DNA of 36,515 nt from an uncultured Lachnospiraceae bacterium (GTDB lineage: Bacteria; Bacillota; Clostridia; Lachnospirales; Lachnospiraceae). Made by a program: the position numbers and the translations under genes. Positions 28,649-36,506 of the stretch are shown piece by piece. The notes beneath the pieces were generated by a model. It was given only the letters and a program-made list of their open reading frames with translations, was not told the DNA's origin and searched no databases. Numbering within the stretch: position 1 is the stretch's first letter; each line of letters starts with the position of its first letter. The stretch covers positions 1-36,515 of the forward strand of contig CANRHU010000035.1 of the NCBI GenBank assembly GCA_947630485.1, in the 5' to 3' direction.

Positions 28649-29731
28649 TTACAAAATACATGAAGCTACTTTCTTTTCGACTATTCGCATATAATCTTCC
28701 ATAAATCGATAATCTGGCTCATTTTTATTTGACCTGCTTACTGGAAGCATAATCTCCACCGTTTTAAGTTTATTCCATGTCGCCATATTATCATAAGAAA
28801 ACAGCAATGGCAACTTACTCATCTGTCCAATAAGATATAATCCAACATACTTATTCTTTATTACTTCTCCGCTAAGCGAAAAAACATGATTATGAGTTGC
28901 CATCTTATACGGGAAATCCCTATAATATGCATTTCCCCAAAAATCTATCGTAATAGTGTTCGCAGGAAATATCTTCGCTTTTCTGTCTGTTTTCCCTTTA
29001 ATTCCATTATTCTCGGCACCGCTATTTATAAAATATTCTCCTCTACCATTAACATCTTTCTGCTGTAAATCAACGTCACCTGTTTCAGCTTTAAACAATT
29101 TCCCAAGCTTAAACTTTGCAAATTCTCTATTCTTTCCAAAATGAGATTGATAAAGCTTTTCTTCTTGAGGTGTAATAGTACAATCTTTGATTCCAATGCG
29201 TTCTAAAAATACATCTAGTCTTTCATTTCCTGATTCCATTAAATCGCATATATACCTTTTCATATAATCAAAATCTATTTGATTATCGTTATTCTTTACA
29301 ACAGGCAACATTATTTCTTCGTTCTCAACACGATTATCCCAAGTTGCGAGATTCTCTCTCGAGTACTTTGGATAAATAACATGTTCAATAACTATTGCCA
29401 TATATAAATTTGCTTCAAATGGAATATCTTTAACATTCTTTATTCGTATCAGGTAGCTTTCTGCCAGAATTCCAGTTTTTCTCTCCTGAGCGTATACTTT
29501 TCCTGCAGATATTACTCCATTATAAACTATAGAAATCACATTGTTATAAGTCGTAAAGTCATTTTTTTTGCCCCAATACATAATTCCATTATCACCGTAT
29601 TTTGCATATACAACTGGAATACAGTATTCATTATCAGGAGATTTTTTCAAATTCTGTTTTTTCGCCTTTTTAACAGGGAGTTTTTCAAATATATCTCCTA
29701 GTCTAAATTTTTTGTAAGGAATATCAGTCAT
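28649..29731 (-). CDS. Type I-like DNA specificity (S) subunit of a BcgI-like system
   Basis: A 360-residue protein with two similar halves, each resembling a target recognition domain of HsdS type. The first begins KKFRLGDIFEKLP and has LATWDNRVENEEIMLPV. The second begins AKFKLGKLFKAETGD and has MATWNKLKTVEIMLPV. The repeats should read the two halves of a bipartite site. Length and gene order match the BcgIB-type B subunit. It overlaps the methyltransferase-nuclease gene by 8 nt. DNA is much AT-richer than iorA next to it, consistent with transfer. Confidence 0.85.
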   Translation of the reverse strand: MTDIPYKKFRLGDIFEKLPVKKAKKQNLKKSPDNEYCIPVVYAKYGDNGIMYWGKKNDFTTYNNVISIVYNGVISAGKVYAQERKTGILAESYLIRIKNVKDIPFEANLYMAIVIEHVIYPKYSRENLATWDNRVENEEIMLPVVKNNDNQIDFDYMKRYICDLMESGNERLDVFLERIGIKDCTITPQEEKLYQSHFGKNREFAKFKLGKLFKAETGDVDLQQKDVNGRGEYFINSGAENNGIKGKTDRKAKIFPANTITIDFWGNAYYRDFPYKMATHNHVFSLSGEVIKNKYVGLYLIGQMSKLPLLFSYDNMATWNKLKTVEIMLPVSRSNKNEPDYRFMEDYMRIVEKKVASCIL

Positions 29732-31781
29732 CGAACTCTTCTCCTCTCAGAATTGAGCTTACTTTCCATGCCAAATAATTATTTACCGCGGATTTAAAAT
29801 CTTCTTCTGTAGGTAATGTATTCACGTTTTTATGCTGATTAAATGTCCAATCATTTCCATTCAAAGAAATACAATCCTTGATAACTAATCCATTTTTCTC
29901 CGTATAGTAATTGGTTTTTGGTTTTTTCCCTAAAACAATCGCTTCAACCTCAGCGTATCTTTCAGCTGCATTATCTATATCTTTAAGATTTACTTCCTGT
30001 GTAGATTTTTTTCTATTCTGTCGACCATAACCATCAAATGAAAAATCAACAAAAGTAACTATATCATCTTCTTCGTGAGGTCTCGCAACCTTAAATAAAT
30101 ATATAGCTGTTTGAACGCTTGATTTCCCTGTAAACAATTTATCAGGCATATGAATGCTCGCAAGTAAAGTATTCTTTTCAAGAATCTTCTTAGTATAAAC
30201 GTCTCCCTGTCCAGAGCCCGCGTTTTCTTGTATAAGAATACAGGCGTATCCATTAGCCATCTGACCGAGCGCTTTTTCTACAAAATTGAACCCTTTTCCT
30301 GGTGCACTATACGGAGGGTTTAATAAAAAGACATTTGCCGGAAAGTTTCCATTATACTTAAAACTATCGTCATTTATCATATTCGATGAACCGTCCCCCA
30401 TAAGAATCATATTAAGAACAGCCAACAAATATATATTGCCAAGTATTTCGATACCCAGTAATTGATTCTCCTTAATGTTTCTAATTTTAGCTTCCAGTTC
30501 ATCTTTATCTTTCATTTTTGATTGTGCATCTTTTATCATTATGTCCATAGCGGATACGAGAAAACCTGCTGAACCCATAGCCATATCCCACACAAAACTG
30601 TCTTTGTCTGTTCGAGCAAGATGCGCCATAAACGCTGTTACATATCTGGGTGTTAATACAACGTCATTTTGCTGATCGTTGTCTATACTCACCCAATCGT
30701 TGAGAGAATTGAAAATTTTACCAGTAAAATCAAGATGAAGGTTCGATTCCAGACAAGGAATAATATCATCTTTAACCTGCCGATATAATTCCTTAACCGA
30801 GCTTTCTCCGTTAATCGGCTTCCATAATGCTTCCTTTTCAAAAACTGGATTAAGCAATCCAGCAATCATTCTTATTTTATCTTCACTACATTTTTTCTTT
30901 TTCAAAAATGCTTTAATTCTTTTTGTTATTATTGTCGAATCATTATCTTCCTTATCATCATTCCCTTTAAAATCTGGCATAACAATAGGAGCTAGTCCTT
31001 CCGTTGATAATCCAGCCATTATTAGCCCAGTAAACAAATATAATTTTTCATTTGTTGTCAGATAGTTTTTGAATCTCTCATTATCATAAAGACTTTGATG
31101 AATTGCTTTAATCTTTTCTTCAAGAGTTGCTTCTACTTTTTTTGCAAGCGCCTCTTTCTCTTTTTCTGATAATACCAACTTATCTAGTTCTTCCGCCAAA
31201 TTATCTACGTTCGACTGTTTCAAGAAAGCTAGGTTTTTATACGCCGCAATTCTTTTAGGCATACGACTGTTTTTTTCAGAAACATAGAAAGCATCTAATT
31301 CAACCTCTATACTTCCGTCTGAAACAATATAACCGTTCACTCCTATTGCAATTACCTCATCATATCCTTTTCCATCAAGAATCGCATTTGCATAATGAAT
31401 AGCACCATTTACAGCATAATCTCGAATAGTCGAATAATTATCATCTCCTGCTTTATGCGGATTCTTTGCATCTGGCTTTGAATCAGTTGCCCATTTAGTT
31501 ACCAATTCAATGTCTGTACCACCCTTAGCATATTTTATTAACTTATTCTTTGTACCCTTAACTTCTATCATTACAGGTATTCTTCTCATACTAGAAGTTT
31601 CTATAAGGACACGTATGTCAGGATAATTATTTCCACTTCCACCTGACTTTGATACAGAATTCTTCAATGCATTATCAATAGAAGGATTAATTGATTCTGT
31701 TTTCGTATAATGCTTTATCTTATATCCATCTAATTGCTTTTTAAATATTTCTTCTACCTTTTCTTCAACGCTCTTCGCCAT
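29724..31781 (-). CDS. BcgI-like fused endonuclease-methyltransferase (A subunit)
   Basis: A 685-residue protein that seems to join a nuclease and an N6-adenine methyltransferase. The N-terminal part has a PD-(D/E)XK pattern: PDIR at about residue 55, then EVKGTK about 17 residues later. The methyltransferase has motif I as DMAMGSAGFL (usually DPxxGSGGFL) and motif IV as NPPY. Long helices around residues 195-230 likely form a coupling segment. This layout plus a separate S subunit matches BcgI-type IIB/IIG enzymes, which cut on both sides of a bipartite site. ATG at 31781 has the better ribosome spacing; 31793 is an alternative. Confidence 0.82.
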   Translation of the reverse strand: MAKSVEEKVEEIFKKQLDGYKIKHYTKTESINPSIDNALKNSVSKSGGSGNNYPDIRVLIETSSMRRIPVMIEVKGTKNKLIKYAKGGTDIELVTKWATDSKPDAKNPHKAGDDNYSTIRDYAVNGAIHYANAILDGKGYDEVIAIGVNGYIVSDGSIEVELDAFYVSEKNSRMPKRIAAYKNLAFLKQSNVDNLAEELDKLVLSEKEKEALAKKVEATLEEKIKAIHQSLYDNERFKNYLTTNEKLYLFTGLIMAGLSTEGLAPIVMPDFKGNDDKEDNDSTIITKRIKAFLKKKKCSEDKIRMIAGLLNPVFEKEALWKPINGESSVKELYRQVKDDIIPCLESNLHLDFTGKIFNSLNDWVSIDNDQQNDVVLTPRYVTAFMAHLARTDKDSFVWDMAMGSAGFLVSAMDIMIKDAQSKMKDKDELEAKIRNIKENQLLGIEILGNIYLLAVLNMILMGDGSSNMINDDSFKYNGNFPANVFLLNPPYSAPGKGFNFVEKALGQMANGYACILIQENAGSGQGDVYTKKILEKNTLLASIHMPDKLFTGKSSVQTAIYLFKVARPHEEDDIVTFVDFSFDGYGRQNRKKSTQEVNLKDIDNAAERYAEVEAIVLGKKPKTNYYTEKNGLVIKDCISLNGNDWTFNQHKNVNTLPTEEDFKSAVNNYLAWKVSSILRGEEFDD

Positions 31782-31950
31782 TTTCTTTTCCATCCTTCTC
31801 TGATTTCTTAATTACCGCTTCCGCTTCAATAAGTGCTGTTCGACGAATAAACTCGCTATATGATGAATAAGCTTCAAGACGAGCTGCTCTCTTTAGCTTT
31901 TCCAGTTCTTCTTCACTAACCCTTATACTCATGGAAATCGTCTTATTCAT
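31765..31950 (-). CDS. Ribbon-helix-helix protein, possible controller
   Basis: A 61-residue ribbon-helix-helix protein. The beta strand (TISMSIRVSEEELEKLKRAA) is followed by helices with SSYSEFIRRTALIEAEAVI, similar to CopG/TacA-type antitoxins and repressors. Its charged tail (KKSEKDGKENGEER) overlaps the start of the nuclease-methyltransferase gene. The ATG at 31950 sits 8 nt after GGAGG; a TTG two codons earlier is less likely. It is first in the restriction operon and may repress the promoter at 31971-31999, delaying nuclease expression on entry into a new host. Function is inferred from position. Confidence 0.8.
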   Translation of the reverse strand: MNKTISMSIRVSEEELEKLKRAARLEAYSSYSEFIRRTALIEAEAVIKKSEKDGKENGEER

Positions 31951-34173: not shown

Positions 34174-34581
34174 CTAAAGCCGCGCCAAAAACTCCGCCGG
34201 CGTATAGGCGGCAACCCGGCTCTTTTTGAAATCGCGGATATTTCTGGTGATAATGTGATCGGCATGCACCCGCTCCGCTGTGGCCGCCTGCAGGGCATCC
34301 TCAAAATCCTCCCATCTCATTTCGGCCGCATTTGTCATATCCGCTGTGCTTAATCCCGTAAACCGGAAAATAAGGGCGAGCCTTTTCAGCACATCCTCAA
34401 TCAATTCCGGGGAAAGCTCCTTACGCATGACATACACAAGATTCGCAAATGTCAGCGCTGAAACAACCCCTTCCACCTGGTCCGTTTCACATAATTTCCA
34501 TATCCTGACCGAATCTTCAAAATGCGGTTCGCGCTTCTGCAGAACGTCCAGGATGACATTTCCATCAATCAGTAGTCTCAT
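34174..34581 (-). CDS. PIN-domain toxin (VapC-like)
   Basis: A 135-residue PIN-domain ribonuclease, presumably the toxin of the pair. The N-terminal metal site is LLIDGNVILDVLQKREPH; the common form is DTN, here DGN. Later acidic residues lie in WEDFEDALQAA and HADHIITRNIRDF. PIN toxins cut RNA using Mg/Mn held by acidic residues. It overlaps its antitoxin gene by 17 nt and has only a weak ribosome site, so translation is likely coupled to the antitoxin. Confidence 0.88.
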   Translation of the reverse strand: MRLLIDGNVILDVLQKREPHFEDSVRIWKLCETDQVEGVVSALTFANLVYVMRKELSPELIEDVLKRLALIFRFTGLSTADMTNAAEMRWEDFEDALQAATAERVHADHIITRNIRDFKKSRVAAYTPAEFLARL

Positions 34582-34874: not shown

Positions 34875-34952
34875 CTGAACAAATCCAGTAAAATCTTTTG
34901 TTTCACTGATTTCAACAGCAATTCCATCTGCTATTTATTGGCGCAAAAAACA

Positions 34953-34974
34953 GCCATCCTCAAAATGGGATGGC
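34953..34974 (-). terminator. Terminator after the PBECR4-like gene
   Basis: A 7-bp stem (GCCATCC with GGATGGC) followed on the minus strand by TGTTTTTT, 10 nt after the stop codon. Confidence 0.85.
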
Positions 34975-34983
34975 CAATAATAT

Positions 34984-35646
34984 CTATTTCGTCTCATCTG
35001 TCTTCTCTGTTTCTGTTTTAGGAAGTAGCTCTGGGACAATCATTGCTTTGACTTCTTCTGGAAGGTTCTCCATATTAGCTGACTTATCCATAAACAGAAT
35101 CTCTGTATATTGGGAAGTATCATTTGGTCGTGAAAAAATATGGGTCACAATATAAGCATTTTTACTCTTTGAAAAGCAGTCTTCATCTCGCAGGGACTGA
35201 GCAACATAACAATCCCCTTTTTCATTTCCCTGGGCGTCCAGTTCCTTATTCATGCACAGTGTAAAATTTAGATCCGTTGTCCCAAATCTATAGTTCTGCG
35301 TGTTTGTCACGATTTCCTCTAAAATGAAATTCTCTGATGTAGCCATTTGAGCTATATCTCCAATATGCTGTACCTTTCGGACGCATAAATCATAGGGATG
35401 CACTTCATTAAACCAAAATTGCGAAAGGCTCAGTTTCCCCTGCAAAGCATATTTAAAGAATCTATCTGCAGATAGGTAAGTATCCACTCCGGTCAAATGG
35501 CGAAAATTTTCCTTTTTGAATATTACCTCTATGTACTTACCTTCAAAGACATACAAAAACCGTTTACCAACCAGTTTGCTCTTGTATAAATTTGCAGCCG
35601 CTTCAATTTTTGCTTTGAGAACGAGTCTGTCTTGTTTCTTGCTCAT
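34984..35646 (-). CDS. Probable PBECR4-type nuclease-fold protein
   Basis: A protein of about 220 residues that resembles the PBECR4 group, a branch of the barnase-EndoU-colicin-RelE-like nuclease fold found on phages and mobile elements. Supporting segments are FEGKYIEVIFKKENFRHLTGV, LQGKLSLSQFWFNEVHPYDL, and YRFGTTDLNFTLCMN followed later by YVAQSLRDEDCF. If correct it may be an RNase-like toxin or a factor acting on host RNA. No catalytic residues are assigned with certainty. The start may be 35646 or 35655. The gene begins 37 nt after a terminator hairpin that ends a structured RNA, so its expression may depend on read-through. Confidence 0.6.
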   Translation of the reverse strand: MSKKQDRLVLKAKIEAAANLYKSKLVGKRFLYVFEGKYIEVIFKKENFRHLTGVDTYLSADRFFKYALQGKLSLSQFWFNEVHPYDLCVRKVQHIGDIAQMATSENFILEEIVTNTQNYRFGTTDLNFTLCMNKELDAQGNEKGDCYVAQSLRDEDCFSKSKNAYIVTHIFSRPNDTSQYTEILFMDKSANMENLPEEVKAMIVPELLPKTETEKTDETK

Positions 35647-35669
35647 CTTTCCCATATCCTATGTGCTTT

Positions 35670-35709
35670 ATAAAATAAGAATGCGCCGGACAACATCGTC
35701 ATCCAGCGC
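35670..35709 (-). terminator. Terminator hairpin of the structured RNA
   Basis: On the minus strand an 8-bp stem (GCGCTGGA with TCCGGCGC, extended by weaker pairs) is followed by ATTCTTATTTTAT. It lies between the structured RNA and the PBECR4-like start codon. Confidence 0.7.
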
Positions 35710-35921
35710 TTATATTCAAATTGGCGGTTTTCTGCTGGCTGTCAGCCGCGACGTCCTTGCGAACATCTGTAGCCGCCGGAAATTTTAGTCCCCGGCGCGG
35801 ACCCGCCGTCTCTCCCTGGCGTGGGCGCGATATCCTTCCGAATATCTAGTCAGCCTTGGTAATTACCCTGCCCAAGCGCAGTACAGCTTTTACGTGCCGC
35901 CACACGAAGCCTTTCGACTTA
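35683..35921 (-). ncRNA. Candidate structured non-coding RNA, about 240 nt
   Basis: The minus strand between a consensus promoter and a terminator has no reading frame but dense structure. A 5-bp stem with a GAAA loop (35907-35920) starts at the predicted +1. A CGTG/CACG hairpin follows (35893-35906). A GC-rich 9-bp stem is at 35774-35797. Two 18-nt hairpins (35829-35846 and 35750-35767) share the form GATnTTC-GNAA-GGAnnTC. Between the two, A-T changes to G-C and T-A to T-G while pairing is kept. A CTGC/GCAG loop carrying GCTTGG could pair with CCAAG downstream as a pseudoknot. Size, Firmicute host and GNRA loops fit large ncRNA classes such as raiA-type RNAs. HEARO (IscB guide RNA) shares a few short motifs. 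The class is not settled. Confidence 0.65.
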
Positions 35922-35926
35922 TCTTT

Positions 35927-35954
35927 ATTATACTCAAAATCGCCCAAAAATCAA
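35927..35954 (-). promoter_or_regulatory. Promoter of the structured RNA
   Basis: On the minus strand TTGATT (35949-35954), a 16-bp spacer and a perfect TATAAT (35927-35932). The predicted start falls at about 35920, exactly where the first hairpin begins. Confidence 0.7.
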
Positions 35955-36215: not shown

Positions 36216-36506
36216 CTAATATCCCGTCAGATCATGCAGCATTTTCTGTCTTAAGGTCTTTCGCTTCTCTTCCGGCTTTATCGGGCCGAAGAAATTCTCA
36301 ATCAACTCCTCGGGCGTACCAATGCCCATTCGCACCATTTCGTCAATCTTTTGGGGACAATACTGTTGGGCATTTTTCAGTAATCGGTACGCTTCTTCCG
36401 AATGCAGTTCATACCGCTGTTCCAAGGCCAGCTGTCTAACATTGTCTACCATGCCAGCGCGGGCATGAAATCGGATCCGGCAGTCCTCAGGGGAAACACT
36501 GCTCAT
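36216..36506 (-). CDS. Unrecognised protein, probably the C-terminal part of a longer one
   Basis: At least 96 residues, rich in charged helix (LALEQRYELHSEEAYRLLKNAQQYCPQK, then PEELIENFFGPIKPEEKRKTLRQKML in segments). An ATG at 36506 is possible, with a weak GGA upstream. However, the frame stays open to the window edge, so this is more likely the end of a larger gene. No family was recognised. Its position beside a mobile-type region suggests a mobile element or phage protein, but the sequence gives no direct sign of function. Confidence 0.5.
   Translation of the reverse strand: MSSVSPEDCRIRFHARAGMVDNVRQLALEQRYELHSEEAYRLLKNAQQYCPQKIDEMVRMGIGTPEELIENFFGPIKPEEKRKTLRQKMLHDLTGY

Follow-up and report, generated by a model that had tools for sequence, protein, structure and literature searches.

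A structured RNA preceding PBECR4 genes in gut bacteria, phages and plasmids: a probable RNA antitoxin of a type III-like module

Toxin-binding RNA antitoxins are known for few kinds of toxin. In the type III families ToxIN, CptIN and TenpIN, found on phages, plasmids and chromosomes, a single promoter precedes a repeat-bearing, pseudoknotted RNA, a Rho-independent terminator and the gene of a predicted endoribonuclease (PMC5086642). The AbiF/RCd22 system of C. difficile shows a similar layout, with a promoter, one non-coding RNA carrying two copies of a motif, a terminator and a prophage-borne toxin gene, and its RNA neutralises the toxin in trans by direct binding (PMC12373285). AvcID, a type III system active in phage defence, has an RNA antitoxin of just under 300 nt, no predicted terminator between its genes and, instead of a ribonuclease of the ToxN kind, a deoxycytidylate deaminase as the toxin (PMC10511110), which means that type III antitoxins can serve quite different toxins. 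The PBECR domains, in turn, are a set of predicted RNases in polyvalent phage proteins, occurring also as solo phage proteins (PMC5512222); the available text of that paper mentions no RNA partner, and the term 'noncoding RNA' is absent from its main part. Here, a locus is described in which a gene of the family PBECR4 (PF18813), whose Pfam name points to this set, directly follows a structured RNA of about 240 nt. It is read on the minus strand, from 35954 down to 34951, of a 36,515-nt contig of an uncultured Lachnospiraceae bacterium (CANRHU010000035.1, assembly GCA_947630485.1), called the window throughout, and it is probably a type III-like module of an RNA antitoxin and a PBECR4 toxin.

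The unit starts with a predicted promoter (35927..35954), in which the -35 box TTGATT (35949-35954) and the -10 box TATAAT (35927-35932) are spaced by 16 nt. With 10 matches out of 12 it is the top-scoring promoter of the region, and the RNA is predicted to start at about 35920, the first base of its 5' hairpin P1. The RNA, the proposed antitoxin, extends over 35680..35920, being defined by homologues and covariation, with its ends set from the promoter and from an intrinsic terminator (35683..35709; 12-bp stem, T-rich tail) which separates it from the PBECR4 gene. This gene, the proposed toxin of 223 residues, occupies 34984..35655 (alternative possible start at 35646) and begins 27 nt past the terminator stem, while a terminator-like hairpin detected by the sequence scan at 34951..34976, 3' of the stop codon, ends the unit. 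No second promoter was found on the minus strand between the RNA and the gene at the scan threshold, and therefore PBECR4 is presumably made by read-through. A first-pass annotation, made from the sequence alone, had described the -10 box, the start at a GAAA-capped stem and the terminator just as they are found here, and had seen no reading frame in the stretch. On the RNA strand the longest open reading frame has 19 residues (4-51 residues in 24 other RNAs, which speaks against hidden coding), and on the plus strand a 90-residue frame overlaps part of the RNA. The closeness of the RNA to a predicted toxin gene would also suit a type I antitoxin acting by base pairing with the mRNA of the toxin; nevertheless, the position is not antisense, the predicted duplexes within a locus are on average of -79.6 kcal/mol against -77.9 kcal/mol for those with other loci, and the own duplex is the best of nine in only 2 of 24 cases, so that this explanation is considered very improbable.

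The linkage between RNA and gene recurs widely. A DNA pattern derived from the most conserved stretches of the RNA matched at 105 places among some 85,000 species genomes and at 8 in IMG/VR, a first viral pattern having produced chance matches at 4 of 10 loci. Thirteen loci were excluded as chance or unproven (L068, L072, L075, L078, L089, L094, L109, L112, L114, L115, L128, L133 and L143), one of which, L094, may be a true RNA. The pattern matches and the records found earlier amounted to 105 RNAs, or 101 unique copies after removal of 4 identical ones, the window not being counted. Downstream sequence of at least 720 nt was available for 86 of these: the next gene is an intact PBECR4 in 52, a fragment or frameshifted remnant of it in 12 and no PBECR4 in 22; for the remaining 15 the sequence ends too early to judge. 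A -10-like box precedes 92 of the 101 RNAs, and a -35/-10 pair 65. According to the record titles, the carriers belong to Lachnospiraceae, Oscillospiraceae, Selenomonas and Erysipelotrichaceae, together with a metagenome-assembled genome of Collinsella, and many are draft metagenome bins. Moreover, the IMG/VR phage contigs that had given the first relatives of the protein carry the same RNA directly upstream, with 77% identity in L013 and about 74% in L014 and L015; in L014 it is flanked, together with the PBECR4 gene, by portal- and terminase-like genes, as identified by reading the translations. By DNA, no plasmid record matched the RNA region of the window.

The first-pass annotation had regarded the RNA as stand-alone, perhaps of the raiA type. 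The first part of this proposal fails for the window, since the RNA there is the beginning of a unit with the PBECR4 gene and the association is repeated in the 52 other intact loci. Copies without a toxin do exist (G007, L038 and others), and they are apparently cases of toxin gene loss; G007, which belongs to the same genus, has an RNA of 98% identity (L012:3215-3530), and its PBECR4 breaks off after a few codons, other sequence following it. Further on, this contig (G007:C82) has a gene of the AAA-ATPase type resembling the one in the window, and the RNA there is apparently an orphan antitoxin. As regards raiA (RF03072), no match was obtained in the window or in its own genome, although the latter search by itself proves little, as the control genomes gave none either. 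That a stand-alone RNA should lie next to PBECR4 by accident is thus barely credible, with the linkage recurring in distant genera and in phages. The other part of the annotation, a large non-coding RNA of a new class, is borne out. No Rfam family reached its gathering threshold in the window, where the only match with E up to 10 was an unrelated one of 12 nt on the plus strand, nor in 11 related loci; the RNA of AbiF, RF03085, was likewise not matched in any of them.

The converse survey started from the protein, with searches of 397, 391 and 392 genomes, of IMG/VR and of plasmids. The toxin clade of the window, defined by a clade score of at least 127 bits, comprises 14 loci including the window, and in 11 of them the profile of the window's RNA type (class 1) matches upstream. 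In two others, L018 and L186, a promoter (11 of 12 matches) and a terminator enclose a stretch which gives no class 1 profile match and folds better than all of 200 shuffled sequences (z of -2.67 and -4.13, respectively); L018 holds two 32-nt repeats 74 nt apart, and L186 none. No RNA was seen in the last one, L016, where about 28 residues at the N terminus of the toxin are missing from the contig. The RNA was also present at the four further viral loci found through the protein (L013, L014, L015 and L037). In L023 (1958-2095) and L164 (1293-1430) it lacks the stretch between the repeat hairpins, as if by recombination between the repeats, and in both the toxin is truncated. Protein scans of viral contigs gave nothing with the toxin of L024 and only its own record with that of L045.

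Overall, among the intact PBECR4 genes whose upstream sequence was long enough, none was met without an RNA-like stretch, this being judged by inspection alone, with no profile match, at about ten loci (L018, L035, L036, L160, L172, L184, L185, L186, L217 and L218). The loci without evidence of an RNA are L016 and L169, with 5'-truncated toxin genes, L029, a fragment of 66 residues, and L171, at a contig edge. RNAs without a toxin are therefore common and intact toxins without an RNA were not clearly met. Such an asymmetry would be expected if the RNA is an antitoxin and PBECR4 its toxin, although the imbalance could in part come from simple decay of the toxin gene.

The fold of the class 1 RNA is supported by covariation and can be described as two diverged units, each formed by an H-type pseudoknot and a second hairpin. 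All elements are on the minus strand. At the 5' end, P1 (AAGTC-GAAA-GGCTT, 35907..35920) is followed by P2 (35893..35906), the loop of which (GCGG, 35897-35900) would pair with CCGC (35724-35727) in the 3' tail, forming PK3. Unit 1 comprises P4 (35868..35881), whose loop CUUGG (35872-35876) would pair with CCAAG (35855-35859) as PK1, and the repeat hairpin hp1 with a GGAA loop (35829..35846). After the linker hairpin P6 (35804..35821), unit 2 repeats the design with P7 (35787..35803), loop CGCCG (35793-35797) and its partner CGGCG (35774-35778) as PK2, and hp2 with a GCAA loop (35750..35767). Finally, a GYUG strand (35884..35887) would pair as PK4 with CARC (35738-35741) in the loop of P9 (35734..35746), and the two long-range pairings, PK3 and PK4, would thus tie the units together. 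The first-pass annotation had noticed two diverged, compensated 18-nt hairpins about 80 nt apart, which are hp1 and hp2, with starts separated by 79 nt and stem differences that are indeed compensated, and also the possible pseudoknot of a GCTTGG loop with CCAAG, which is PK1. It did not report the PBECR4 gene, the three further pseudoknot helices and the membership of the hairpins in a larger repeated unit.

These pairings were assessed in an alignment of 67 out of 87 RNAs, kept at a similarity below 93%; L054, L063, L094 and L143 were dropped, and L012 was replaced by the nearly identical copy of the window. Over the 35 pairs counted, which make up 8 helices including three pseudoknot helices, 97.5% of the cells are kept, and both sides change in a compensatory manner at 23 pairs; the covariation score was 0.431 compared with 0.193 after shuffling (none of 500 as good) and at most 0.103 with slid partners. 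P2 is paired in 99.6%, P7 in 98.8% and PK2 in 97.0%, with compensatory changes at all five pairs in each of the last two, while PK3 is paired in 89.6%, with such changes at three of its four pairs and up to 10 of the 67 RNAs breaking a pair at a given position. PK4 is paired in 100% (GUUG/CAAC in 37 RNAs, GCUG/CAGC in 29 and GUUG/CAGC in 1). The motifs GYUG, CUG and CUGACARCCAG were required by the search pattern, which by itself ensures their conservation among the RNAs collected; both PK4 motifs were fixed in this way, but not which of their variants occur together. P1, P6, hp2 and PK1, in which two clades are out of register, were left outside the column count and tested by swapping strands between RNAs: their own strands were better in 72-82% of the comparisons and in 71-73% within a clade, the figures for PK1, which support the pairing already suspected, being 82% and 73%. 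In the same test PK3 was weaker (76% overall, 54% within a clade), and P4, P7 and P9 hardly vary, so that the values of 40, 42 and 17% say little there. Folding of the window RNA as a single sequence gave a z of -2.36, with 2 of 200 shuffles as good, which is only moderately above chance; the comparative evidence for the fold is much stronger.

Besides the covariation of hp1 and the strand swap of hp2, a comparison of their loops was informative. The apical parts of the two hairpins vary from RNA to RNA, and within one RNA they resemble each other, with a similarity of 0.612 against 0.415 when permuted within the clade (0 of 2000 permutations); the outer stems match in slight excess only (0.322 against 0.244, 1 of 1000). 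Since the apical loops are alike within RNAs and different between them, the comparison suggests that hp1 and hp2 may face one common protein surface. Loop distance and protein distance correlated with r of 0.63 in the 40 RNAs with an aligned toxin, which mostly reflects shared ancestry, and the partial r given the rest of the RNA was 0.19, a value reached by 9 of 2000 permutations.

Loops which match between the units and track the protein, within an elaborate conserved fold that goes well beyond the needs of a simple inhibitor, could also belong to a guide, scaffold or activator, PBECR4 being active as an RNase only as an RNA-protein complex. Activity restricted to the complex has come under discussion for AbiF, in connection with its relation to Cas13. 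A homodimer of AbiF with two ncRNA copies is reported (PMC12373285). Nevertheless, the many RNAs without a toxin and the lack of an intact toxin clearly without an RNA fit an antitoxin better, and the RNA of AbiF itself acts as an antitoxin (PMC12373285), so that a guide or activator is thought unlikely. A cis-acting leader, that is, a ligand- or phage-sensing attenuator setting the read-through into PBECR4, has in its favour that a terminator-like hairpin stands directly before the gene, at the equivalent site, in 50 of the 52 intact loci, and control of read-through has also been proposed for RCd22/AbiF (PMC12373285). However, the counted conserved pairs lie outside the terminator, duplicated hairpins with matching loops would be unexpected in a leader, and the RNA persists in the 22 of 86 loci without a PBECR4 gene; as the sole explanation a leader is accordingly quite improbable, while a leader function could instead add a further level of control to that of the antitoxin.

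The protein of the window matches PBECR4 with 86.7 bits over positions 1-187 of the 188 of the family, the Pfam gathering cut-off being 27, and its AlphaFold2 model reaches a predicted local distance difference test score (pLDDT) of 94.6. It is predicted to be a BECR-type endoribonuclease, in which the invariant residues H53, K94 and R156 are candidates for the active site. A kinship with ToxN by sequence was considered and rejected: no other Pfam family scored above its cut-off in PBECR4 proteins, neither of the ToxN type nor Abi_2, and no PDB chain was matched by sequence at E up to 10. PADLOC gave no match for the protein of the window and NCBIfam none for three PBECR4 proteins, whereas in PHROGs the PBECR4 proteins fall in families of unknown function. 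No phage record matched the window protein.

With regard to the type III systems, the locus shares their main traits. A non-coding RNA with repeats lies upstream of the gene on the same strand, the repeats being the class 1 units here and tandem repeats elsewhere (the class 3 RNAs described below have none); a single predicted promoter and a predicted Rho-independent terminator are present; and the RNA is pseudoknotted, as covariation of PK1-PK4 indicates. In contrast to ToxIN, CptIN and TenpIN, the toxin is PBECR4 and has no recognisable sequence relation to ToxN, and the class 1 RNA exceeds theirs in length, being made of two diverged units with additional long-range pairings. It also differs from AbiF/RCd22, since AbiF is an Abi_2/HEPN protein with the RNA RF03085, and neither this domain nor this RNA motif was matched here; with AvcID it shares a toxin other than a ToxN-kind ribonuclease. 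The RNA-PBECR4 module is best called a system that would function like type III and, because of the lack of a recognisable ToxN relation, it is kept outside the ToxIN, CptIN and TenpIN families. Within the accessible text of the open-access literature, most subscription papers and bioRxiv preprints being outside its scope, nothing was found on PBECR4 or on an RNA partner of PBECR; from the listings of open-access papers on new type III systems, ToxIN-type systems, AvcID and AbiF emerged, and nothing on PBECR4.

PBECR4 genes of other lineages are preceded by RNAs of a different construction. Class 2 RNAs carry two repeats of about 50 nt; a comparison of 20 sequences showed double changes at 10 of the 14 pairs of the consensus, including pairs between the loop of the first repeat and the start of the second. 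Class 3 RNAs are conserved and have no plain repeats; in 15 sequences double changes occur at 17 of 31 consensus pairs, the terminator stem included. A class 4, with short repeats of about 35 nt, was seen by inspection in L035, L036, L160 and L172. The strongly folding stretch of L186 (2236-2474; Butyrivibrio plasmid pCY360), which precedes an intact toxin of the window's clade, is unlike the other classes and perhaps represents a fifth design.

Within 299 sampled genomes of the window's family, PBECR4 matches occurred in 57, in 50 of them above the Pfam cut-off; loci were taken for 30 of the 73 matches listed (L007, L011 and L189-L216), the weaker ones being left out. Profiles were built from seed sequences, 6 of class 2 and 7 of class 3, and matched 28 of the 28 fetched loci from this Pfam search and none of 80 control loci; 4 of the 28 are class 3 seeds and 4 lie at the places of class 2 seeds, and the 20 non-seed loci were all matched. 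The regions upstream of the genes in L189-L216 show a second and a third conserved RNA architecture, which are candidates for new Rfam families. A test for direct repeats, by itself weaker than that with the profiles, was positive for 27 of 28 PBECR4 genes below 190 bits and, within the clade of the window, for 36 of 54. In the Pfam set it was positive for 11 of 29 genes, compared with 11 of 133 controls, and class 3 accounts for 16 of the 18 failures. In the genus of the window PBECR4 was found in 9 of 26 genomes and an upstream RNA at all nine loci, of which 5 are seeds and one, L010, has only a remnant at a contig edge.

Mobile elements carry the same association. PBECR4 genes are present on plasmids of Enterococcus, Pediococcus and Butyrivibrio and in phages of Streptococcus, Erysipelothrix, Lactococcus and Latilactobacillus; an RNA ahead of the gene was recognised by inspection at L184, L185, L217 and L218 and through a profile match at L187, L219 and L220, and 76 Enterococcus plasmid records contain a related PBECR4 protein. 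In the Enterococcus saigonensis plasmid pVE80-1 (L187, about 2180-2330), two near-equal repeats of about 55 nt and a terminator stand before PBECR4. In the P335 lactococcal phages phiLC3 (L218) and 50101 (L221), PBECR4 comes shortly after the lysin gene, and the phiLC3 record annotates just small open reading frames at this position. The resistance of LC3 lysogens has been attributed to the repressor and Sie genes, a PBECR4-type gene being unmentioned in the available text (PMC7693887).

As to the surroundings of the unit in the window, the next minus-strand reading frame of at least 90 residues downstream encodes a PIN_3-domain protein (34174-34581). Genes with N6_Mtase and Methylase_S domains, parts of a type I restriction-modification system, lie at 28649-31793. 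Near the contig end, a short reading frame (36216-36506) gave a weak PADLOC match to PDC-M62B (E of 0.0021).

Because the layout matches that of type III loci and of AbiF/RCd22, it is proposed that the RNA binds and silences PBECR4. From the single promoter the 240-nt RNA would be transcribed, most transcripts stopping at the terminator, and a minority of read-through would yield the PBECR4 protein, leaving the RNA in excess. Each of the two units would then bind and block one PBECR4 molecule. On loss of the RNA, for example by a phage shutting off transcription or by loss of the element, free PBECR4 would cut RNA and stop growth, as may be expected by analogy with ToxIN, AvcID and AbiF, and a role in phage defence would likewise be expected. 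The PBECR4 relatives of Bacillota would follow the same scheme with differently built RNAs.

Recurring as it does in gut bacteria and on phages and plasmids, the pairing of RNA and PBECR4 appears to represent a widespread type of toxin under RNA control that has so far not been described. A family known merely as a predicted RNase is found behind structured RNAs in all the 28 fetched loci, so that proteins annotated as 'PBECR4 domain-containing' gain a testable role and new RNA families are suggested. Furthermore, with its four pseudoknot pairings and the loop variants that nature provides, the RNA lends itself to studies of RNA-protein specificity. On balance, although with less assurance than for the locus itself, we lean towards the view that PF18813 in Bacillota is a superfamily of ribonuclease toxins silenced by RNA, whose antitoxin RNAs come in at least four designs. 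Present in about one fifth of the genomes sampled from the window's family and in many phages and plasmids, it would then be a large overlooked arm of RNA-gated phage defence.
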